Positions 3 to 29,447 of a DNA stretch of 33,246 nucleotides are shown here, piece by piece. The notes beneath the pieces were generated by a model. The model was not told where the DNA came from and ran no database searches. It saw only the letters and a program-made list of their open reading frames with translations. A program made the position numbers and the translations under genes. Origin of the DNA: Bacteroidales bacterium (lineage in GTDB: Bacteria > Bacteroidota > Bacteroidia > Bacteroidales > UBA932); assembly GCA_017451395.1 (NCBI GenBank), contig JAFSPR010000083.1, positions 1 through 33,246 of the forward strand, in the 5' to 3' direction. The first letter of the stretch is position 1. Every line of letters starts with the position of its first letter.

Positions 3-845
3 GAGTCCCGCGTGAGGATGTTCGTGACCCAGAAGGTGAAGGACGAGGTTGAGTACGGCCTTCAGCAGTTAAGGGAAATCTATGCCGTCGCATCCAAGGA
101 TGTGAGGGAGGATGTTCCAGTGAGCGAGCTTCGCGTTGGGCTCAAGTGCGGCGGCTCTGACGGCCTTTCCGGCATCACGGCAAATCCGCTTCTTGGTGTA
201 TTCAGCGACTGGATTGTGGAGCAGGGCGGAACAACCGTCCTCACGGAGGTTCCGGAGATGTTCGGAGCAGAGACCATCCTTATGAACCGCTGCCAGGATG
301 AGGCTACGTTTGAAAAGACCGTCCACCTTATCAATGACTTCAAGGAGTACTTCATGAAGCAGGGTATGCCGGTTTATGAGAATCCTTCTCCCGGCAACAA
401 GGCCGGCGGCATCTCAACTCTTGAGGAGAAGTCCCTTGGCTGCACCCAGAAGTGCGGAAAGAGTCTTGTACGCGGCGTCCTGAAGTACGGTGAGCGCCTT
501 CAGGTGAAGGGCCTCAACCTTCTATCGGCCCCCGGCAATGACCTTGTGGCTTCAACGGCCCTTGCATCGGCCGGCTGCCAGATAGTGCTCTTCACAACGG
601 GCCGCGGCACTCCTTTCGGAAGTTACGTGCCCACCATGAAGATTTCCACCAACACCCCGCTGTTTGAAGGAAAACCTAACTGGATTGACTTCAACGCCGG
701 CGTCCTTGCCCAGGATGAAAAGATGGAGAGCGTTGCCGCCCGTTTCCGTGACTACGTCCTTGCTGTTGCCAGCGGCGAGCCCGTGAACAACGAGAAGAAC
801 GGCTACCGTGAACTTGCCATCTTCAAGCAGGGCGTAACGCTGTAA
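3..845 (+). CDS. uxaA: Altronate dehydratase, C-terminal part (5' truncated by window)
   Basis: Altronate dehydratase converts D-altronate to 2-keto-3-deoxygluconate (KDG) in the cytoplasm, the last isomerate-pathway step of galacturonate catabolism. The reading frame is open to the left edge, so this is the C-terminal ~280 residues of a protein that is usually about 495 residues long. The family-typical block GGSDGLSGITANPLLG followed by VEQGGTTVLTEVPEMFGAE is intact, as is the GRGTPFGS region. The ATG at base 1 is in another frame and stops after four codons. Galactarate dehydratase (GarD) is a paralogue that cannot be fully excluded, but the nearby uxaB and exuT argue for altronate. It probably starts or belongs to the same + strand pectin operon as the genes that follow. 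Confidence 0.93.
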   Translation, partial: ESRVRMFVTQKVKDEVEYGLQQLREIYAVASKDVREDVPVSELRVGLKCGGSDGLSGITANPLLGVFSDWIVEQGGTTVLTEVPEMFGAETILMNRCQDEATFEKTVHLINDFKEYFMKQGMPVYENPSPGNKAGGISTLEEKSLGCTQKCGKSLVRGVLKYGERLQVKGLNLLSAPGNDLVASTALASAGCQIVLFTTGRGTPFGSYVPTMKISTNTPLFEGKPNWIDFNAGVLAQDEKMESVAARFRDYVLAVASGEPVNNEKNGYRELAIFKQGVTL

Positions 846-853
846 TCCCTCTT

Positions 854-904
854 TGTCATTTCGAGCGGAACCCGCAGGGCGAAGTTCGCTCAGTCGAAAT
901 GACA
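854..904. repeat. REP-like palindrome in uxaA-pectate lyase gap
   Basis: An exact 11-bp inverted repeat, TGTCATTTCGA at 854-864 and TCGAAATGACA at 894-904, encloses a GC-rich centre. Its first 16 bases equal those of the in-frame copy at 9233. It fills most of the 84-nt gap between uxaA and the pectate lyase gene. The transcript would fold into a hairpin, so it may also act as a terminator or processing site. Confidence 0.75.
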
Positions 905-8273: not shown

Positions 8274-9965
8274 ATGATTTGTATTCGACGCCTCCTTGTA
8301 ATCCTTCTGGCATGTGCGGTATCTTGCAGCCCCAAGGCCCGGATTGAGTACACCAACCCCATCCTGCATCTGGATTATAGTGATCCGGATGTGTGCAGGG
8401 TGGGGAAGGATTACTATATGACGGCGTCGTCATTCAACTGCTTCCCGGGGCTGCCCATATTGCACTCCAGGGATCTGGTTCACTGGGAACAGATAGGCGC
8501 CGCCCTCCTGGACTATCCCTGCGACGGAACTGATGCCGATTTCCGTACAACTGTCCAGCACGGAAACGGCGTATGGGCGCCTGCAATCCGTTACTATGAC
8601 GGTTGGTTCTACATCTATGTGGGAGACCCGGACAGAGGTATCTTTATGGTTAAGGCCCAAAAGCCGGAAGGCCCCTGGGAAAAACCTATCTGGGTAGTGC
8701 GCCAGAAGGGATTCATAGACCCCTGCCCGCTTTGGGACAAGGACGGGAAGGCATACCTTTCCCACGGCCTTGCAGGCTCACGTGCCGGGCTTAAGAGCGT
8801 GCTTTTTGTGGCCCCTATGGCGGCCGATGGCACTTCACTCACGGGCCCTTCAAGGATTGTCTACGACGGCCACAAGACCCAGCCTACCATTGAGGGAACA
8901 AAGTTCTACAGAAGGGGAGAGTACTACTACATCTTCTCTCCGGCGGGCGGGGTTGCAACAGGCTGGCAGACCGTCCTGAGGGCAAAGGACCCCTTCGGCC
9001 CGTATGAGGAGAAGATTGTGATGGCCTGGGCTCCCGGGACCATCAACGGCCCTCACCAGGGCGCATGGGTTGACGCTCCGGACGGCAAGGACTGGTTCCT
9101 GCATTTCCAGGACAAGGGCGCCTACGGCCGGATTGTCCACCTCCAGCCGCTTTCCTGGCAGGCCGATGGATGGCCGCTCATAGGCGAAGACCCTAACGGT
9201 GACGGCGTAGGGCAGCCGGTGGCTGGGGGATCTGTCATTTCGAGCGGAGGCGAAGCCGGAGTCGAGAAATCTCCTTATGGTATAGACTGGGCCTGGCAAT
9301 ACCCCTCAATCCCCGGCCCTTACTGGCATATGGCGCTTCCGGAGGGCGGCGTAAGACTCTACAGCGTAGAGCAGAAATGGCCCTACAGGAGCCTCTGGGA
9401 CTGCCCCAACCTGCTTTCACAAAAGTTCCCCGCCGAATCCTTTACAGTGAAGGCCAAGATGATTTTCTGCCCCAACCCGCAGCTTAAGCAGCGCGGAGAA
9501 ACCGCGGGCTTTGTGGTAATGGGGAACGACTATGCCGGGCTCCGTATGACGGATACCCCGGAAGGACCCGTACTTGACTATGTAACTTCAATTGGAGCGT
9601 CAAAGGGTGCAGGGGAAGATGCCCTCACCCTTTGCACGCTGCAATATTCTTCCCGCCCCCAGCCGCACCAATTTGAATCGAAGAACGTGCCTCTGGTGGA
9701 TTATCCTGACAGGCAGGAGGCTACCCTTTATGTGAAACTTGAGGTGGCTCCAAGGCCCGTGGAAGGCAATGTCCCGGACGCCGTATGCCACTTCTCATAC
9801 AGCCCGGACGGAAATAATTGGACCGCCGTCCCGGGAGAGTTCATCGCCCGGCCTGAACTATGGATTGGCGCCAAATGGGGCTTTTTCTGCAACCGCTTTG
9901 CTCCAAAGAACGATGCGGGGTGCGTAGACATAACAGATATTTCAATTATAGCATCATATGACTAA
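8274..9965 (+). CDS. Glycoside hydrolase family 43 lipoprotein (xylosidase/arabinofuranosidase type)
   Basis: A secreted or surface-anchored hydrolase that probably removes arabinose or xylose side chains from pectin or hemicellulose. The lipobox is AVSC (Cys18). The five-bladed propeller spans ~25-315 with the three expected acidic residues: base D37 in YSDPD, pKa modulator D149 in FIDPCP and acid E207 in PTIEG. A C-terminal beta-sandwich (~340-563) follows, as in beta-xylosidase-like GH43 proteins. Between the domains, residues ~320-334 are encoded by a 44-bp palindromic repeat also found elsewhere in the window. The gene overlaps the next start by 8 nt, so translation is probably coupled. 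The subfamily and sugar specificity are not settled by sequence reading. Confidence 0.88.
   Translation: MICIRRLLVILLACAVSCSPKARIEYTNPILHLDYSDPDVCRVGKDYYMTASSFNCFPGLPILHSRDLVHWEQIGAALLDYPCDGTDADFRTTVQHGNGVWAPAIRYYDGWFYIYVGDPDRGIFMVKAQKPEGPWEKPIWVVRQKGFIDPCPLWDKDGKAYLSHGLAGSRAGLKSVLFVAPMAADGTSLTGPSRIVYDGHKTQPTIEGTKFYRRGEYYYIFSPAGGVATGWQTVLRAKDPFGPYEEKIVMAWAPGTINGPHQGAWVDAPDGKDWFLHFQDKGAYGRIVHLQPLSWQADGWPLIGEDPNGDGVGQPVAGGSVISSGGEAGVEKSPYGIDWAWQYPSIPGPYWHMALPEGGVRLYSVEQKWPYRSLWDCPNLLSQKFPAESFTVKAKMIFCPNPQLKQRGETAGFVVMGNDYAGLRMTDTPEGPVLDYVTSIGASKGAGEDALTLCTLQYSSRPQPHQFESKNVPLVDYPDRQEATLYVKLEVAPRPVEGNVPDAVCHFSYSPDGNNWTAVPGEFIARPELWIGAKWGFFCNRFAPKNDAGCVDITDISIIASYD
9231..9274 (+). repeat. In-frame 44-bp palindromic repeat inside the GH43 gene
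   Basis: The block begins TCTGTCATTTCGAGCGGA and ends GTCGAGAAATCTCC, and is read in frame as SVISSGGEAGVEKSP. It matches, without gaps and with about seven differences by eye, the reverse-strand copy at 29065-29108, and shares its start with the intergenic copy at 854. It falls in the linker between propeller and beta-sandwich. Confidence 0.85.
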
Positions 9966-10764: not shown

Positions 10765-10879
10765 ATCATAGGGGTATATATTCCGGAATCTCTGGCCACC
10801 CTCGGCCGGATAAGAGGGAGGGGCCCACGAAGTGGGAGGGGTCGCGAAGCGACGATTCCGGAATATATACCCTTATGAT
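10765..10879. repeat. MITE-like element, 26-bp terminal inverted repeats
   Basis: A 115-bp element bounded by 26-bp inverted repeats (10765-10790 and 10854-10879) with a single mismatch; each arm contains ATATATTCCGGAATC or its complement. The inside is GC-rich with small palindromes such as CCCACGAAGTGGG. It starts 3 nt after the kduD stop and ends 12 nt before the gatC-like start, nearly filling the gap. There is no transposase and no clear target duplication, so mobility is inferred only from the architecture. In mRNA it would form a long hairpin. Confidence 0.75.
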
Positions 10880-15427: not shown

Positions 15428-15569
15428 GCCCGTAATGCCGATGCGGTGGAGCTTAATGTGTTGTTTTACAACCATTTACAGAGTTCTTTGGGATTACCGG
15501 TAATCCCAAACGATCGCGCAACTCGCTGTGGCCCAGCTACTTAGCGTCCACCGCATCCGCATTACGGGC
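15428..15569. repeat. Palindromic repeat element, copy A
   Basis: A 142-bp structure with 23-bp inverted ends (15428-15450 and 15547-15569, one mismatch). Inside is a perfect 24-bp palindrome at 15487-15510 whose half-site is TTTGGGATTACC. The same element recurs in opposite orientation at 17450-17571. The two copies differ mainly by transitions while keeping the palindrome intact, which is typical of a structured mobile repeat or structured RNA. There is no ORF inside. Confidence 0.85.
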
Positions 15570-15571
15570 CG

Positions 15572-15671
15572 GGGCAATGAATCACACGTTTTGGGCGTTT
15601 TTTGTGCGTTTCGTTGCCCAAATGGTCAATGATTAACACGAAAACGGCGATTTTTGTGCGTTTCGTTGCCC
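15572..15671. repeat. Two tandem copies of a ~52-bp repeat
   Basis: The segments 15594-15619 and 15646-15671 are 26 bp each with one mismatch and share TTTTTGTGCGTTTCGTTGCC. The sequence before each also aligns (CAATGA...ACACG), giving a unit of about 52 bp in two copies. It adjoins repeat copy A and the G-rich tract. Function unknown. Confidence 0.8.
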
Positions 15672-15800
15672 CGGGGAGGCCCCGGGGAGGTCCGGTGGGA
15701 GCCTGGTGAGGTCCTGGTGAGGTCCGGTGGGAACCGGGGTGGGGTCCTGGTGAGGTTCCGGGGACGGTTCCGGGGGTGTTCCGGGGGAAGCCGGGGTGGG
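15672..15800 (+). repeat. G-rich degenerate repeat tract after the symporter gene
   Basis: About 130 bp on the + strand made of variations of GGTCCTGGTGA and GGTCCGGTGGGA, with many GGGG runs that could form G-quadruplexes. It abuts the stop codon of the - strand symporter gene, so the G-rich strand is that gene's template strand; it may slow RNA polymerase. The + strand open frame across it is a composition artefact. Confidence 0.7.
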
Positions 15801-17449: not shown

Positions 17450-17571
17450 CGGTGGAGGTTAAGTGATTGAGCTACAACGTGTTGCACGATCATTTGGGAT
17501 TACCGGTAATCCCAAAGAACTCTGTAAACGACTGTAAACCAGCATATTAGGCCCCACCGCATCGGCATTAC
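17450..17571. repeat. Palindromic repeat element, copy B (inverted relative to A)
   Basis: The reverse complement of copy A aligns along ~122 bp, including the exact 24-bp palindrome (17493-17516), the flanking GAACTCTGTAAA, and the end ACCGCATCGGCATTAC. The left terminal arm of A is only partly kept. It occupies the space between the diverging YczE-like and porin genes. Confidence 0.85.
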
Positions 17572-21701: not shown

Positions 21702-24700
21702 TTAAAGAGGATATAAGCTCGCATAGGTTTTACCATGAAACGTATCACTGAGCCAATTAACACCATAATGAGTCCCGAAATAGGATGAGGCATTGTTGTT
21801 TGCACGAGTTTCAGTCCAATAGTAACTGTGAGCCCAGAGGTAACCAATCTTTTCGTCAGAAGAGGCACTTATTGCACTTGGGACCCCTATTGCGAGCAAA
21901 TACGCAGGACCAAATCTCTGACTGTCAATATAATGACCATATTCATGCATATAAAGCGGATTGTGAGTGGCGTATTCTTCAAAAGTGCCAGTTACTGCTC
22001 CCGTATCATTTATATTTAGGAAACTGCCGAATGATATTCCTGAGCCATCAGAATACTCTCTAGTGGCGTATGTAGCACCACCAAGATAATCCACCCTATC
22101 AACTGCCCCAACAGTGTTTCTGGCAGATGACCAGAAATAACCTAATGCTTGTTGTGGGGCTTCCCACGTGTGACGGAGAATACCTTCTCCAACCTGACCC
22201 CAGAATGACTTGTTTTCATCAAGGTAGAAGTTGCCTAGGAATATCTTGCCAGCGTTGGCCAGACCTTTACCTCCAACAAAACTAGTAATAGTAGCACCGG
22301 TTTTAGCTAAACCTGTCCCAATAGTCCCATACAGCAACGTTTTTCCTACTCCTCCCCAGAATCCGGACATGCCAGCTAAAGCCGTCATTCCCGAGACGCC
22401 TGCATAACCTAATGCACCTACGGCAAAACCTGCAAGTGAGCCCGTCATTAAATACTCTATCCACTTGCCGCTACTCAAATCCTCTCCGCGAATAGCATGT
22501 GCTGCGACATTACCTGCCCCAAAAACAGCGGCACTGAAACAGGCCACCCAGAATAGTGTAGTAAATGCAAACTCACCATTCGGATCCCGATACTTCAGCG
22601 GATTATTCAGCGCATAGCTGTACCGGTTGAAGTTCTGGGTGAAATCCGGGGCCTGGACATAAGGGTCAGGACTCAGGAAACGGCCCAGGAGAGGATCATA
22701 CAGCCTGGCGTTCATGTTTATGAGACCAAACCAGGTAAGGTGTTCGTGACCGGTGTAGCCACGGCCAAGGAAGAGCGCCGGCTCGGTTCCCGGAGTATAT
22801 ATGGCCTGTATGGCAGGGTTACGGAGCCGCCCCCAAGGGTCATAACTATATTCGGCCACAAGAGTTCCGCTGGTAGTGGCTATGTGGGTGACACTGCCAA
22901 GGTAATCACGTCCTATGTTATATGCCGTCCAGCTGCCGTTGTTCACCCGCTGATATACCATTGGTGCCGAATATGCGTCTCCACCGAGGTACAATCGTTC
23001 CTTTGTGCCGCTCGATGTGACATCACATTCATATTGGCCACCTATATAGTATCGGGTAAGCTCCTGCGTAAGGCCGTCGGTAATCTGCATCCTTACCCTG
23101 TCTCCTACAGCGTTATATGTGAAGGCCGCCGTTTTACTGCCCTCCTCCAGGAGTGACGGACGGTCAAGGCTGTTGTAACTTATATCCTGAGTTCTGGAGG
23201 GGACCAGACCGGAATATACAGGAGTATAGCTTGACACCTGATAAGGCTTTCCCGTATTTGCATAAGACATTGAACCTACGCTGGTCAAAGAAAGGATATT
23301 ACCGTTATTTGCATACTGGGCAACCCGAGTACCAAGTGTATCAAGCCTGTTCAAAACATCATACTTGAAGGACTCTGTCTTATTGTTTATAACATCCGTC
23401 CTTGAAGTCAGGTTCCCGTTGTTTACATTGATCTGGTATGTGAAGTTCTGGAGGCTTCCGCCAGCCATCTTCCTGTATGCGGGAAGCCCATATTCGGTGA
23501 AGCCGTATTGCCGGCTGGTTGACCCTGTGGTAATCTGAGTTGGTTGCCCAAGGTCATTCTCTGACACAAGGGTCCACACAGTTGTCCCGTCAGTGATAGA
23601 TGATCCTGTGTTACAACCATTGGCATAAGAGTATGTCTCCGTGGTAATGTCTCCATCATGGGTGGTATACTTTACCGTGGATAGATTGCCCCAGCTTCCA
23701 TAGGTGTACGTCTTCTTCAGCCATTTGCCGTCAGGGACTATTTCCTTTACTGTGGAAACGCGGTCGTTATAATCATATGTATATTCCGTTCCCGTGCCGT
23801 TGGTGGACTGCTCACTTGAAAGTAAGCCGTAGGTGTTGTACGAATATGTTGTATTGAACTCCCCGGGGCGCACGACCGACGTTGTCCTTCCGTACTTGTC
23901 CCAACTGGTAGTAATGCTGCCATTGGGGCCCGTGTGCGTCTGCTCGTGAGAGCCATCGGCATTCCACACGTAGGCTTCAGTCCGTGTTCCGGCACTGGGG
24001 TCTGTGATTCCTGTCCTCCGGCCATAGCCGTCATAAGTGAAAGTGGTCTCTACGTTCCCGGGGGCTGTCACTTTGGATGGCTGGCCATCGTCCCGGAGGG
24101 TGTATGTGATTGTACCTCCGTCATCCAGCACGCTCACTACATTGCCGCTTGGATCCTTGGTGCTTACGGAAACGATTCCGTCCTTTACGGTTGTTACGCT
24201 GGTGCCGCTGTAGGACCATGTAGTCTCCTTACCTGAAGGTTCCAGTATCTTTATGGGGAGGTCATAGTTGTCATAAGTGTACGTATTCCAATAAGCGGGT
24301 TCAGCTTCCCGGAAAGGAAGTGAGGTTTGGCTTACCTGCCCGTAGCGGTTATATTTAGTGTCTGTGTACTGCCACTGGGCATCGAAGCGCTTATTACCGC
24401 TTCGCACTTCACGGTCCAGAGCATCATAATGAGTAATGGAAGAAGGACCGCCATACGCCTCTGTCTTTGTAACTGTATATACCCCAGTTCCGCCCCAGGC
24501 ATAGGTGGTATATTCAACGGAACCATCTATACGCCTTACGGTTATTACTCTTCCCCAAGGGTCATAGGAGTAATATGTATTCCTGCCACGGTAATCATCC
24601 ACGCGCCCGGGCTTTCCAAACTTGTTATAATTCACATAGTGGGTTGTATGCCCAAGGGCGTCGGTATCAGTGAGCATATATCGGCCATTAGCATCATAAG

Positions 24701-27700
24701 TATATGTATGGCCGATGAACTCCGTGGCATCATACGAGGCGCTCTTTTCCGTGAGGACGTTGCCGTGGCTGTCATAGGTCCAGCGGGTCTCGCCTGCAAG
24801 GAGAGTGGAATCCGAAATCTCATACTGAGGGTTAGTCGGGACGCATTTACTTAAGCCCGTATATGATTTGCGGGTAAGAGGGTGGAAGTTGGCGTCATAC
24901 GTTGTGAGCACCTTGTTCTTCCACTGGCGGTAAAGCTGACCGTCAAGGTCTAGCCACGTGAATTCATTGGTAACACTGCCAAGAACATACTTGGTGGACG
25001 TATTACTGTGTTGGTAGCTGTATGTACGTCTTTCGCGCTGGGAATTGTTTTGGCCGGAGAAGTGCTTCTCTTCGAGTATTTCCGTCGGGTAATCCCAGCT
25101 GTCATAATAGTAGTTTGTTCCTGAGATTACTCCCGTAAGATCATCAGATGTGACACTTTGGGAAAGTCGTGGGTTGAGTTTTCCGTATGTGGTGCTGTGG
25201 TCGCTCCAAGTATTTGTAAGGGTATAATAGGTCTCGGAGGTGCTACCGGTAATCTTTTTGCGCTCAACCTTTGTCAGAACACCCATCTTCTCAGCATCGT
25301 AGTATGAATCAGCGACGTCGTGGATGACGTTTTGCTGCGCCACGTTTACCATAACCCGCTTGCGTATTTTTGAGAAGCCGCAGAAACCGAGGCCACGCTT
25401 ATGTGCTACACCGTTGTAGTACTCGTATTGATTGACATCGTAAAAAGAGGATGCTGAACTAGACAAGTACGAATATTCACTTGAAAGAACATATATCGGT
25501 AATGTCTGGAAGGCGTAACCCTGGGAGTTGTTGACCGTGAGTGAGGTGTCGGTCCACGTTGGGGCATTGGTTGGAAGATATGTGTAACTGCTCCTGAGCC
25601 GCTTCCCATAACTGTCCACGGCCATGGTTATGTGGCGGGATGCACTGGTTATGCCCTGGTAGGAGTAGTTATAGACGGTGCGTCCATCAAACTTAATAAA
25701 AGCACTTGGACGGTTATATGCAGAAACATTCACCGGGACTATTCCCTTGGCATTCTTTACGTTATTAGGTGATTCTTGGTAAAAACTAAAGGAATAACCG
25801 TTAAGGTTCACTCGGCAGCCAAGCGTGGCGGTGGTGTCAGATGTTTCATTGATTGTCACCATGTCGGCCATACCGTCACGGTTCACGTCTATGAACACCG
25901 CGTTGGTAAAAGATGACGAGGGATTGAGACCCACTAAACCTACAGTGAAAGAGTTTCCGTTATAATAGTATACTTCCCATGAATATGAAGCGTTTGAAGA
26001 GGGTGTCCTAATAATATCTATATATCCGTCGCCATTAATGTCAGCGAAATAACACGGACGAAATCTGGAACATAGAATAGTATAGGTGAGATCAGGGAGC
26101 GTCTTCTCTAAAGCAAAGTGGCCGTTGTCCAGAAGTCGATAAATTCTTAATCCATTACTGTCTGCATGACACAGTTCTGTGCGACCGTCATTATCAATAT
26201 CATTTACAATAAGGCATTTATCCCAATCATAAGGTGAATCTGGATCCCCGCTTTGCGGGAGATAAAACAGGTACTCATCAGAAAGAACTGTCTGAGATTC
26301 ATAGTCAATTATTGCCGCATAACAAGTTTGATCTCGTCCATAGTCCGCTGCGATATCTTTACTTGGCGCTATTGCCAGTAAATCACACTTACCGTCTCCA
26401 TTAAAATCGCCCCAATAGTATTTACGATTGTATGGGGAATGGTCGCTATGAACTCCATTTAAACTGACGATAAAACTATTTATCCACATCGGATAGCCAT
26501 CATCATTGCATTTATATGTCGTGATACTTACTCTGGTTTTATCCCCAAATACTCCTTCCAACAGATTGATTTTAACAATCTCATCAGCGCCATCTCCATC
26601 AACATCTACCGCGTCTATTGACTGAAAGCCTTTTTCAAACACCAAACTTAAATTGAATTGTAAGTTATTTTCCAGTCTGGGAATAAAGATAATCTGTTTG
26701 TCTTCAGGCGCGAACGGGCCATATCTCCAAATATTATAATCAGAATCCCATACTCTCTCATACGTTGGATATCCGGGATAAATCAATATGCCGTCACGGA
26801 AATCTCCCGACGTGAATTTTCCACGTTTATACAAAATAGGCAATATCGCAGAAAAATACGTTGCGGGGAGCGTAATGCTTTGGTTGTCTTTCTTGAGATA
26901 TTGGGATGTAGGAACACTAGCGTACGTGAACTCCACCGGCGGGAGTGACGCCGACCCGGAGGTGCGGTCAATATGGTTCAGAAGCCATAGAGGACCGGAT
27001 TGTTGGTATGAGAAGTTGTAAGTGTAAAGGACCTCGCCGTCAGAACGGGATTCGATAGAGGTGAGACGATAGCCGTTTCCATACTCTACACCAGCATAAT
27101 AACGTAGTGGCGCATCTATCCAGCTATCGTAATTGAATACAATCTCACCACTGTAATTATCGGAGTCGTCATATCCATAACGAATTGACAATATCCTATC
27201 ATATCCCGCTACTCCATCCAAATCATAATCAAAAACAATTTTGTTACCCTCAATATCATGTAGTTCAGTCAGATAATAATATGCGTGAGCATATTCACTT
27301 GTTGTTCCATGACCAAAAACCGCAGTTATTCCATTGGGGTATAACGCTCTAAAACGCCCTATTTTCCCATTAATGTATTCCTCTCTTACCAAAATGTGTC
27401 CCCGTGCCGATTCAAGAGGATAAGTTGTTTTTGTCTCAGGATGTTCATTGCGGACCAGCGGATTGCCATCCAAAGCAAACACCTTACCTGCAGAGGCATT
27501 AACATCGGCCGCCTTGATTTCTCCGTGATAGTATGTGTTCTTGTTTATGAGTTTGATACAAGAAATGCCTTGAATATCCCAGCCATAACCAGCCCAGCCT
27601 TCGGCCGACTGGCTGTTATATGCTAGGGAGATGTTTGGAACCAGTTTAAACCCTGCCGCCGTAGGGATGGGAAGATTATATGTGCGGGCGCCAGTAGGTG

Positions 27701-28112
27701 AAACTCCTTCCTGCAAGGGAATGGATCCAACCGAATACGTTGTATTAACAGCTCTAAGTTTGGGTTGCTTTTCAAATTCTTTCCACCAAGCCTCCTCTCC
27801 GGCCATCTGGGACTTGAAAAACTCATCGTTCAGCCAGGACTTTTCGTCCTCTGAAAGCACAAACGGGAGGTTGTTTGGGTCGAGTGAGACCTTTGTCCTG
27901 ACGGACTTGATATTTAGAGTATCTGCGCTTGCCGGAATTGCAACTGGCAGAAGACTGTCTAAACTTGTATGCCTTATCATAGCGTTTCCTGCTGCCCAAC
28001 TACGGGAACTGCGATTGCCGGCATTGTCATAGCCGTAAGATACTGCGTTCTGGGCGAAGGACGGAAACGAGGTCAGCAGTAGCAATGCTATTGAAAGGAT
28101 AATTCGTTTCAA
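21702..28112 (-). CDS. Secreted SpvB/FG-GAP/RHS-repeat protein with HExxH metallopeptidase-like C-terminal domain
   Basis: A 2136-residue protein of the polymorphic-toxin/RHS type. The start is TTG at 28112; no ATG is available upstream, and it gives a clean signal peptide ending SFAQ. A SpvB-like domain (PLQEGVSPTGARTYNLPIP) is followed by FG-GAP/VCBS calcium-binding-like repeats (DVDGDGADEI, DFNGDGKCDLL, DIDNDGRTEL, DINGDGYIDII, DVNRDGMADM). A long series of YD repeats leads to the RHS core end (YDPLLGRFLSPDPYV ... NNPLKYRDPNGE) near residue 1845. The ~290-residue variable tip has hydrophobic segments and then HEYGH (H2056, E2057, H2060) with a downstream glutamate in TETRAN (E2101), a zincin arrangement. 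It lacks most GGCCGAT motifs and is more AT-rich than its neighbours, so it was probably acquired. Confidence 0.88.
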   Translation of the reverse strand: MKRIILSIALLLLTSFPSFAQNAVSYGYDNAGNRSSRSWAAGNAMIRHTSLDSLLPVAIPASADTLNIKSVRTKVSLDPNNLPFVLSEDEKSWLNDEFFKSQMAGEEAWWKEFEKQPKLRAVNTTYSVGSIPLQEGVSPTGARTYNLPIPTAAGFKLVPNISLAYNSQSAEGWAGYGWDIQGISCIKLINKNTYYHGEIKAADVNASAGKVFALDGNPLVRNEHPETKTTYPLESARGHILVREEYINGKIGRFRALYPNGITAVFGHGTTSEYAHAYYYLTELHDIEGNKIVFDYDLDGVAGYDRILSIRYGYDDSDNYSGEIVFNYDSWIDAPLRYYAGVEYGNGYRLTSIESRSDGEVLYTYNFSYQQSGPLWLLNHIDRTSGSASLPPVEFTYASVPTSQYLKKDNQSITLPATYFSAILPILYKRGKFTSGDFRDGILIYPGYPTYERVWDSDYNIWRYGPFAPEDKQIIFIPRLENNLQFNLSLVFEKGFQSIDAVDVDGDGADEIVKINLLEGVFGDKTRVSITTYKCNDDGYPMWINSFIVSLNGVHSDHSPYNRKYYWGDFNGDGKCDLLAIAPSKDIAADYGRDQTCYAAIIDYESQTVLSDEYLFYLPQSGDPDSPYDWDKCLIVNDIDNDGRTELCHADSNGLRIYRLLDNGHFALEKTLPDLTYTILCSRFRPCYFADINGDGYIDIIRTPSSNASYSWEVYYYNGNSFTVGLVGLNPSSSFTNAVFIDVNRDGMADMVTINETSDTTATLGCRVNLNGYSFSFYQESPNNVKNAKGIVPVNVSAYNRPSAFIKFDGRTVYNYSYQGITSASRHITMAVDSYGKRLRSSYTYLPTNAPTWTDTSLTVNNSQGYAFQTLPIYVLSSEYSYLSSSASSFYDVNQYEYYNGVAHKRGLGFCGFSKIRKRVMVNVAQQNVIHDVADSYYDAEKMGVLTKVERKKITGSTSETYYTLTNTWSDHSTTYGKLNPRLSQSVTSDDLTGVISGTNYYYDSWDYPTEILEEKHFSGQNNSQRERRTYSYQHSNTSTKYVLGSVTNEFTWLDLDGQLYRQWKNKVLTTYDANFHPLTRKSYTGLSKCVPTNPQYEISDSTLLAGETRWTYDSHGNVLTEKSASYDATEFIGHTYTYDANGRYMLTDTDALGHTTHYVNYNKFGKPGRVDDYRGRNTYYSYDPWGRVITVRRIDGSVEYTTYAWGGTGVYTVTKTEAYGGPSSITHYDALDREVRSGNKRFDAQWQYTDTKYNRYGQVSQTSLPFREAEPAYWNTYTYDNYDLPIKILEPSGKETTWSYSGTSVTTVKDGIVSVSTKDPSGNVVSVLDDGGTITYTLRDDGQPSKVTAPGNVETTFTYDGYGRRTGITDPSAGTRTEAYVWNADGSHEQTHTGPNGSITTSWDKYGRTTSVVRPGEFNTTYSYNTYGLLSSEQSTNGTGTEYTYDYNDRVSTVKEIVPDGKWLKKTYTYGSWGNLSTVKYTTHDGDITTETYSYANGCNTGSSITDGTTVWTLVSENDLGQPTQITTGSTSRQYGFTEYGLPAYRKMAGGSLQNFTYQINVNNGNLTSRTDVINNKTESFKYDVLNRLDTLGTRVAQYANNGNILSLTSVGSMSYANTGKPYQVSSYTPVYSGLVPSRTQDISYNSLDRPSLLEEGSKTAAFTYNAVGDRVRMQITDGLTQELTRYYIGGQYECDVTSSGTKERLYLGGDAYSAPMVYQRVNNGSWTAYNIGRDYLGSVTHIATTSGTLVAEYSYDPWGRLRNPAIQAIYTPGTEPALFLGRGYTGHEHLTWFGLINMNARLYDPLLGRFLSPDPYVQAPDFTQNFNRYSYALNNPLKYRDPNGEFAFTTLFWVACFSAAVFGAGNVAAHAIRGEDLSSGKWIEYLMTGSLAGFAVGALGYAGVSGMTALAGMSGFWGGVGKTLLYGTIGTGLAKTGATITSFVGGKGLANAGKIFLGNFYLDENKSFWGQVGEGILRHTWEAPQQALGYFWSSARNTVGAVDRVDYLGGATYATREYSDGSGISFGSFLNINDTGAVTGTFEEYATHNPLYMHEYGHYIDSQRFGPAYLLAIGVPSAISASSDEKIGYLWAHSYYWTETRANNNASSYFGTHYGVNWLSDTFHGKTYASLYPL

Positions 28113-28265: not shown

Positions 28266-29447
28266 TTAGTCGGCCTTGACGGTCTCCGCAGGGTCTATCT
28301 TGGAGATGGATAGCGCCGGGAGCCACATCAGGAGAACTATGCCGGCAAAAGCGGCTATATCGGCCCCAAGGATGCCCCAGAAGGGGAGATGGACGGGGAC
28401 GAAGGAGACAAAGTAGTTGGCCGGATCCAGTTTTATAAGATGCGTTGTGCCCTGGATGAGGCAGAAAAGAAATGCGAGGGCATTGCCGACGACCATACCC
28501 TTGAGCACGGCTTCGGCGCCGATGCGCACGAATAATCGGCCTATGGCCCTGTCCTGCATCCCAAGCGCCTTAAGGGTGCCGATGAGAGGGATATTCCTGA
28601 GGAGCATCACCAGAAGGCCGCTTATCATATTGAAACCCGCCACCAGCGTCATCAGGAGAAGGACAATGAGGACATTCACGTCCAGAAGCCCCAGCCAGTC
28701 AAAAATTTGCGGATAACTCCGGGCCGATGAAATGACAAACAGCCCGTTTTCATCCTCATCCTCACTGGCCGCAAGAATGTAACTTATGCGGGCCTCGATG
28801 TCCTTGAGGACCTTGGGGGAAGCGTCCCTCACCCTTACCTCCAACTGGGATACGCTGGTGGAATCCCAGCCGTTGAGCCGTTGCATATCTTCAAGGCCGG
28901 CGTAGACAAGGAGGTTGTCGTCCGTTTCAATGATGTCCCGATGCTCTGCGGTGATATGGAATTTACGCGCACGTACCTTTTCACCCACAAAGTAGGTTGT
29001 GAGGTCTTCTCCGGCCTGAAGGCCAGTGATTTCCGCCAGGCGGTGGGGGATGGAGACGGCAAGAGGAGATTTCTCCGCTCCGCCTTCGGCTCCGGTCAAA
29101 ATGACAGAAGGGGTCCCTTTCACGATTACCCCGTGCACAATTTCCCCGTTTTTCACAATGCCGGCGCGGCTTATGGCAGGGACGATTTCAACTACCCCGG
29201 GAATGGCAAGGATCTTTTCCTCAGATGGCAGGTGACGGGGCATTGGGACGGGATCCTGGCCGCCGGAGACATAAGGAGTGATCTTTATGTCTCCGGTCAT
29301 TGCGGCCACGCCGTCCCTTATGCTATGGCGGAAGCCTGAACTTACCGCCACGGCAACTATTATAACAAAGAAACTCACGGCCGTAGCAACGGCCGCGATG
29401 TTTCCTTTGAACTTTATCTTACGTGATATGAAGGAGTCCGCTACCAA
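28266..29447 (-). CDS. FtsX/LolC-LolE-type ABC transporter permease
   Basis: An inner-membrane permease of the MacB/FtsX superfamily, most like LolC/LolE, which release lipoproteins from the inner membrane. It has 393 residues: one N-terminal helix (~18-38), a large periplasmic domain (~40-255), then three C-terminal helices, the first near VLIVLLLMTLVAGFNMISGL followed by LRNIPLIGTLKALGM, the family's coupling-helix region. The start is TTG at 29447, overlapping the M13 gene by 7 nt; no ATG lies near the expected N-terminus. Residues 114-128 (SVILTGAEGGAEKSP) are encoded by the 44-bp palindromic repeat. No ABC ATPase gene is adjacent in this window, so the partner must be elsewhere. Confidence 0.83.
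   Translation of the reverse strand: MVADSFISRKIKFKGNIAAVATAVSFFVIIVAVAVSSGFRHSIRDGVAAMTGDIKITPYVSGGQDPVPMPRHLPSEEKILAIPGVVEIVPAISRAGIVKNGEIVHGVIVKGTPSVILTGAEGGAEKSPLAVSIPHRLAEITGLQAGEDLTTYFVGEKVRARKFHITAEHRDIIETDDNLLVYAGLEDMQRLNGWDSTSVSQLEVRVRDASPKVLKDIEARISYILAASEDEDENGLFVISSARSYPQIFDWLGLLDVNVLIVLLLMTLVAGFNMISGLLVMLLRNIPLIGTLKALGMQDRAIGRLFVRIGAEAVLKGMVVGNALAFLFCLIQGTTHLIKLDPANYFVSFVPVHLPFWGILGADIAAFAGIVLLMWLPALSISKIDPAETVKAD
29065..29108 (-). repeat. In-frame 44-bp palindromic repeat inside the FtsX-like gene
   Basis: The - strand starts TCTGTCATTTTGACCGGA and ends GCGGAGAAATCTCC, matching the GH43 copy at 9231-9274 over the full 44 bp. Both genes read it in the same frame, giving SVI-x-x-G-x-E-x-G-x-EKSP in each protein. 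It sits in the periplasmic domain where LolC/E homologues vary. Confidence 0.85.

Follow-up and report, generated by a model that had tools for sequence, protein, structure and literature searches.

The window, the whole 33,246-nucleotide stretch of Bacteroidales DNA analysed here, carries a short TGTC-tagged palindromic element that is very probably a non-autonomous REP-like repeat, a divergent relative of the CGTC/TGTC-tagged REPs, which has spread genome-wide and sits inside genes where the reading frame is kept. The initial annotation had described a 44-bp palindromic repeat, read in the same frame in two unrelated proteins and aligning end to end, with a third relative between genes at 854. 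A repeat search of the window recovered the two in-gene blocks as a single inverted pair, at 9231-9275 on the forward strand and 29064-29108 on the reverse strand, which bears out both the end-to-end alignment and the common frame. The repeat is real, with two corrections: its length is 45 nt (87% complementary), and each in-gene copy is by itself a weak palindrome. The third relative was found as an inverted pair with outer tags. The features concerned are as follows.

3..845, forward strand: 3' portion of uxaA (altronate dehydratase); in orthologues of this gene, elements occupy two linkers
854..904, no strand assigned: inverted pair forming one long common stem, each outer end bearing a TGTC tag, in the gap between uxaA and the next gene (folding z -6.16)
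8274..9965, forward strand: host gene for a GH43 family glycoside hydrolase with a C-terminal GH43_C2 domain (Pfam)
9233..9273, forward strand: TGTC-tagged palindromic element, 41-nt form, in frame in the GH43 gene and coding VISSGGEAGVEKS
28266..29447, reverse strand: host gene for an FtsX/LolE-like permease (Pfam FtsX above cut-off; MacB_PCD at 23.6 bits, under its cut-off of 27)
29066..29106, reverse strand: TGTC-tagged palindromic element, 41-nt form, in frame in the FtsX-like gene and coding VILTGAEGGAEKS

Both 45-nt blocks comprise the element plus flanking bases common to the two copies, and they translate to SVISSGGEAGVEKSP in the GH43 protein (563 aa) and to SVILTGAEGGAEKSP in the FtsX-like protein (393 aa). 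The GH43 copy falls between the Pfam GH43 (residues 26-301) and GH43_C2 (residues 335-542) domains. The intergenic pair starts 8 nt past the stop of uxaA. A 17-nt probe from the 5' half of the element, allowing up to 3 mismatches, matched five sites in the window against 0.72 expected, a count reached by none of 100 shuffles; two of these sites are the halves of the 854-904 pair and the fifth lies at 23006-23022 with 3 mismatches. When folded and compared with shuffled sequence, the in-gene copies taken singly did no better than the shuffles (z 1.22 and -0.39), whereas the pair at 854 folds strongly; the fold energies rule out a strong hairpin in single copies. The N-terminal part of uxaA has a partial match on another contig of the draft (C53), which may be a second copy of the gene since it overlaps the window part in the query.

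Over 346 distinct copies, with duplicates by sequence removed, the unit opens with TGTC, followed by AT with three further bases and by GA(G/C)CGNAG; after an optional middle come (C)GA, the three bases complementary to the first three together with AT, and a terminal CTC or CTT. An end could be read in 298 of the copies, and the dominant lengths among these are 29 nt (197 copies), 28 nt (29) and 41 nt (25). The stem triplets are complementary in 289 of these 298, the other 48 copies being excluded from the stem count. Complementarity persists after removal of the dominant TTC/GAA combination, with 47 of 56 stems pairing where 1000 shuffles average 8.4 and never exceed 18, and the stem covaries through TTC/GAA, TCT/AGA, TCC/GGA, GTC/GAC, CTC/GAG, GTT/AAC, CCT/AGG, CCC/GGG and ATT/AAT. 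Copies also cluster. An opposite tag within 60 nt is found in the tags-inside arrangement for 51/346 copies (13/282 shifted windows) and in the tags-outside arrangement for 34/346 (17/282 shifted windows), and a tag of the same orientation lies within 60 nt of 119/346. At four loci (L348, L259, L262 and L242) tandem head pieces of the element, spaced by about 24-33 nt, precede a full copy, and L348 holds three element sites in frame within a mutL-like gene.

The repeat is dispersed well beyond the window. The genome of origin is a draft (81% complete, 2.15 Mb, 133 contigs), in which the 5' half, with up to 3 mismatches allowed, matches at 40 sites and the reversed pattern at 5, and we place the copy number at roughly 20-35. 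The exact core is present in 69 of 200 genomes of the genus and missing from 131, with a range of 0 to 63 copies per genome. A 29-nt form with two free positions is matched exactly in no fewer than 119 stretches from the genomes of named species. By record title, the matches listed come from Bacteroidales, other Bacteroidia, Flavobacteriia, Clostridia, Treponema, Chloroflexota (including SAR202 and Anaerolineae), Phycisphaerales, Verrucomicrobia, another PVC bin and Omnitrophota. Most of the records listed are metagenome bins by title; strain-named records that carry no MAG label are Gillisia mitskevichiae DSM 19839, Flavobacterium sp. 270, Polaribacter sp. WD7 and Polaribacter sp. Hel1_85.

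Counting the in-gene copies and their frames, a check that the initial annotation had proposed, brought out one favoured reading. The copies read were those at 30 loci of the own genome, at up to about 20 places in each of six relatives and on named contigs, so that the in-gene fractions are samples. In-gene calls were made from open frames and codon usage, and copies in the same gene less than 160 nt apart were counted once, which reduced 82 calls to 75 events: the seven genus genomes contribute 49 (from 154 copies) and the named contigs 26 (from 192 copies). The majority of copies read have no in-frame in-gene call. Frame +2, read as xVISSxxEKSx, accounts for 49 of the 75 events and the remaining frames for 13, 5, 5, 2 and 1 (p = 2e-17 against 1/5). 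The preferred reading (GTC ATT TCG AGC GAA GTC GAG AAA TCT, preceded by T and followed by C) gives VISSEVEKS. By distinct host open reading frame the same frame is used in 46 of 68, or in 45 of 64 once four without a Pfam match are removed; 67 of the 68 were scanned against Pfam (L292 was left out) and 63 of the 67 have a family. The safest figure is a collapsed one, because some events are shared by descent: 33 of 51 combinations of gene family and frame, collapsed by hand from Pfam names, are in the xVISSxxEKSx frame (binomial p = 5e-12 against 1/5).

Host families, as named by Pfam, include IleRS, MetRS, DNA polymerase I, UvrA, DnaG, MutL and DnaX, as well as MnmG, RibF, Fmt, RimM, chorismate synthase and MetH. 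Many of these genes are essential. Polaribacter sp. WD7 has a copy in frame within a gene of the Eco57I type. In the consensus, the two commonest frames, VISSEVEKS and, on the other strand, DFSTSLEMT, are the sole open frames without arginine or cysteine, and tolerance of the peptide may be the cause of the frame bias. We also considered a frame set by the 3' end alone, which is ruled out by the phases: 5' and 3' phases are equally biased, with 44 each of 70 phasable events.

The linkers of orthologues were then compared in both window genes. For the FtsX-like protein one of 30 orthologues was dropped as the anchor motif was absent, and tagged palindromes of differing sequence occupy 3 of the 29 linkers read, the window's own included; the other two filled linkers are those of G028, with a tag-inside pair of other palindromes, and G005, with a single one. 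Orthologues lacking the inserted residues, which the initial annotation had proposed to look for, do exist: the linker is 9-10 residues long in G019, G003, G034 and G002, compared with 19 in the window. Untagged FtsX linkers vary, up to 24 residues (G013), and linker length alone proves nothing because some of them are as long as the filled ones. The tag hexamer occurs without a recognised element in three FtsX and two GH43 orthologues, and the hexamer alone also occurs by chance.

The GH43 linker behaves differently, at 24 residues in the window against 27-32 in five orthologues. In the closest relative, that of G005 (78% identical over residues 6-319), the element recurs at this very position with an opposite copy ahead of it; the insertion therefore probably predates the split of the two species, two separate insertions being the alternative. 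The GH43 gene of G003 has a variant with a TTCC stem in the same linker, and the linkers of G019 and G011 contain no recognisable element. In G081 an element lies between the GH43 and GH43_C2 domains of another GH43 protein. The proposal that insertion adds a tolerated peptide agrees with the FtsX orthologues that lack the residues and needs one correction: in GH43 the linker is occupied and not simply lengthened. The broader proposal of a dispersed repeat that inserts into genes is supported by the dispersal, the unfilled orthologues and the frame preference.

Presence and absence also alternate in MetRS and UxaA. The sets were the best 30 matches of the 200 and 91 genomes with a match, respectively, and may favour carriers, as the queries themselves carry the element; each carrier was read as a whole element in DNA or peptide. 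One linker of MetRS is filled in 12 of 30 orthologues and the gene tree needs at least 10 changes; one linker of UxaA is filled in 8 of 30 and needs at least 7. The trees were built without the linker columns, and a change on them is gain or loss alike. The UxaA linker is exactly 17 residues long in 15 of 30 orthologues, and whole elements are found in MetRS linkers whose counterparts in relatives are short and similar. In the pair G088 and G173, metG is empty in G088 and filled by a tag-inside pair in G173 (95.6% protein identity), and uxaA is filled in G088 and empty in G173 (96.1%). The two are sisters on the MetRS tree, and the UxaA tree puts G173 with G003, which is likewise unfilled. Neither a clean target site nor a duplication was readable, because the sequence around the insert differs even between close relatives. 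The UxaA linker also holds other recurring in-frame inserts (L429, L439, L447, L451 and L454), of the type KTFSTxKGSEKVLSAP and GGNAPRPLGVQGD, which appear to be additional dispersed families that lack the TGTC tag.

Among known repeats, the element comes closest to the CGTC-tagged REPs defined by Di Nocera et al. 2013, described in the accessible text of that paper as having a TGTC variant, an AT stem base and no linked transposase (PMC3733652). The same text gives these REPs a patchy multi-phylum range, naming Bacteroidetes once among the phyla, and lists intragenic units, including some in repair and tRNA-synthetase genes; it equates the intragenic repeats of R. conorii with RPE-4 and RPE-6, and bulged forms were possibly missed by the published search (PMC3733652). 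The likeness extends to the unpaired terminal tag, which is TGTC in both window copies and CGTC or TGTC in related linker inserts; our pattern searches required TGTC and are no independent test of the tag. It extends further to the AT...AT stem opening, seen in the window copies and most 5'-half sites, to the patchy distribution over several phyla with units inside genes, and to the lack of a linked transposase, examined here within 500 nt of 43 Y1 genes. Against the published stem of 8-9 bp and loop of 4-5 nt, the present element has a 5-bp stem, a bulge and a middle of at least 6 nt; other inserts of the same linkers (ATTCCCGA/TCGGGAAT) fit the published stem and loop better. The 3-nt tail is CTC or CTT and not, as mostly published, CCA. 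Tags-outside (HH) pairs predominate in the published account, where tags-inside (TT, tail-to-tail) and same-orientation arrangements are rare, whereas both of the latter are common here, and here one translated frame dominates. Because stem, loop, tail and pair orientation are unlike that description, we call the element, on its sequence, a divergent relative of the CGTC/TGTC-tagged REPs that would stand outside the four published families.

A likeness in concept to the Rickettsia palindromic elements had been suggested from the start, and it holds: copies lie in frame, at sites that are unfilled or otherwise filled in orthologues. The closer link is the tag of the CGTC/TGTC REPs, RPE-4 and RPE-6 among them (PMC3733652). 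The accessible text of PMC3767692 describes ATGAC in RPE-4, -6 and -7, and R. japonica inserts at the same loci of orthologues, those for IleRS and PheRS included; ATGAC is the reverse complement of the GTCAT found here. In-frame insertion, conserved host genes, recurrence at the same loci of orthologues and different groups in different species are features in common (PMC3767692), and exposed insertion sites are reported for the Rickettsia palindromes (PMC3767692, PMC3733652). By analogy, the mode of working is like that of RPE-4, -6 and -7. The R. japonica inserts are longer, at 68-192 bp against single units of mostly 28-44 nt here, and in the text available all Rickettsia orthologues are reported filled, whereas here carriers alternate with unfilled relatives. 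RPE-1 (Ogata et al., cited in PMC2229807) is likewise palindromic and in frame within protein genes, but it measures 105-146 bp (PMC2229807) and, in the portion of PMC3767692 seen, is almost without ATGAC. GTAG REPs with their RAYT genes are also short, palindromic, dispersed and in part intragenic; the element falls outside that class, with TGTC as its tag and no core site within 500 nt of any of the 43 Y1 genes scanned. In the open-licence literature no bacterial repeat of this sequence appeared by title among the matches listed, and none of this kind in Bacteroidales beyond the general REP paper PMC3733652; one-frame dominance and repeated filling of the same linker in a Bacteroidales genus were not found there either, in the titles listed and the texts read.

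How the copies move was approached through the Y1-type transposases. To our knowledge, CGTC/TGTC-type REPs have no known transposase. Y1-type genes, of about 300 aa in this genus, were found in 46 of the 61 genomes searched, our own included with 5. None of 43 Y1 loci scanned for the core has a site less than 500 nt from the gene, and 40 of the 43 have no core site at all; the three others have one at 511, 562 and 1105 nt from the open frame. Linkage of the element to RAYT genes is ruled out over these 43 loci, 20 of which were inspected with 260-nt flanks. Several of the Y1-type genes at L183-L202 have flanking palindromes of their own, by eye, which differ from gene to gene. Within the window, inverted repeats of 122 nt (15432-15553 and 17450-17571, 84% complementary) surround a two-gene block coding for an SBF-like transporter and DUF6198, and their core TTTGGGATTACCGGTAATCCCAAA resembles a palindrome that follows a Y1-type transposase gene elsewhere in the same genome, on contig C3 (L186).

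Under the preferred reading, the unit has an unpaired TGTC tag, a short stem opening with AT, a middle of variable length and a CTC or CTT tail, and a putative enzyme acting in trans would spread copies across the genome, probably by transposition. In-gene copies, such as those of both window proteins, occur where the frame stays intact and, in the genes compared here, within linkers or loops; harmful insertions would presumably be lost. A classical RAYT-mobilised REP, moved by the Y1-type transposases of these genomes, seems improbable to us. Those genes are widespread, and GTAG-tagged REPs are the proposed substrates of Y1-type enzymes (PMC3733652, in the text available), but the core is missing from nearly all Y1 loci, several Y1 genes adjoin palindromes of their own, and G179, a genome at 97% completeness, holds 34 copies yet gives no Y1 match with the one Pfam model used (E 0.001). 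We give a somewhat better, though still minor, chance to spread without a transposase, mainly through recombination or gene conversion between existing repeats or through template switching during replication. The tandem head pieces and mosaic arrays, the frequency of same-orientation tags, the replacement rather than extension of the GH43 linker and the lack of a Y1-type transposase linked to the element would all suit it. Many unrelated genes are hit, however, as the 51 combinations of family and frame attest, and whole elements sit in MetRS linkers for which relatives show short, similar sequences, though earlier copies may have stood at those sites.

Selection of the peptide for protein function, with the repeats as domesticated linker modules, is a reading we consider very unlikely: a single frame does dominate and proteins of essential families retain the insert, yet the same linker holds different elements, frames and orientations in close relatives and empty linkers are common. 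Chance similarity, or an ancient coding sequence common to the two linkers, is refuted by the genome-wide copies, the control counts and the orthologues without the residues, and its probability is negligible. A bolder form of the preferred reading, which we put forward tentatively, is that of a frame-locked coding REP. Its commonest reading, VISSxxEKS, would be harmless in linkers and its entry into essential genes regular, and it would steadily produce new linker sequence, with the same linkers of MetRS and UxaA rewritten afresh in closely related species.

Other features of the window lie apart from the element. An inverted repeat of 26 nt (96% complementary) surrounds a 63-nt stretch at 10765-10879, just upstream of a PTS EIIC gene. 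Part of its interior (TCTGGCCACCCTCGGCCGGATAAGAG) recurs on contig C39, close to a copy of the element (L025), which suggests a second dispersed repeat. An intergenic G-rich tract of short repeats of the type GGTCCGGTGGGAGCC occupies 15670-15800, and an open frame of 2136 aa with FG-GAP and RHS repeats spans 21702-28112.

Rickettsia is the best-known source of protein-coding palindromes, and the accessible text of PMC3733652 lists REPs inside genes in several other species. The same kind of event is now seen in a Bacteroidales genus with 200 searchable genomes, where filled and unfilled close relatives are at hand for MetRS and UxaA. In-frame copies could mislead length-based annotation and domain comparisons. 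What moves the CGTC/TGTC-type REPs, whether peptide tolerance sets the frame, and how often selfish DNA becomes protein are questions that can now be tested.
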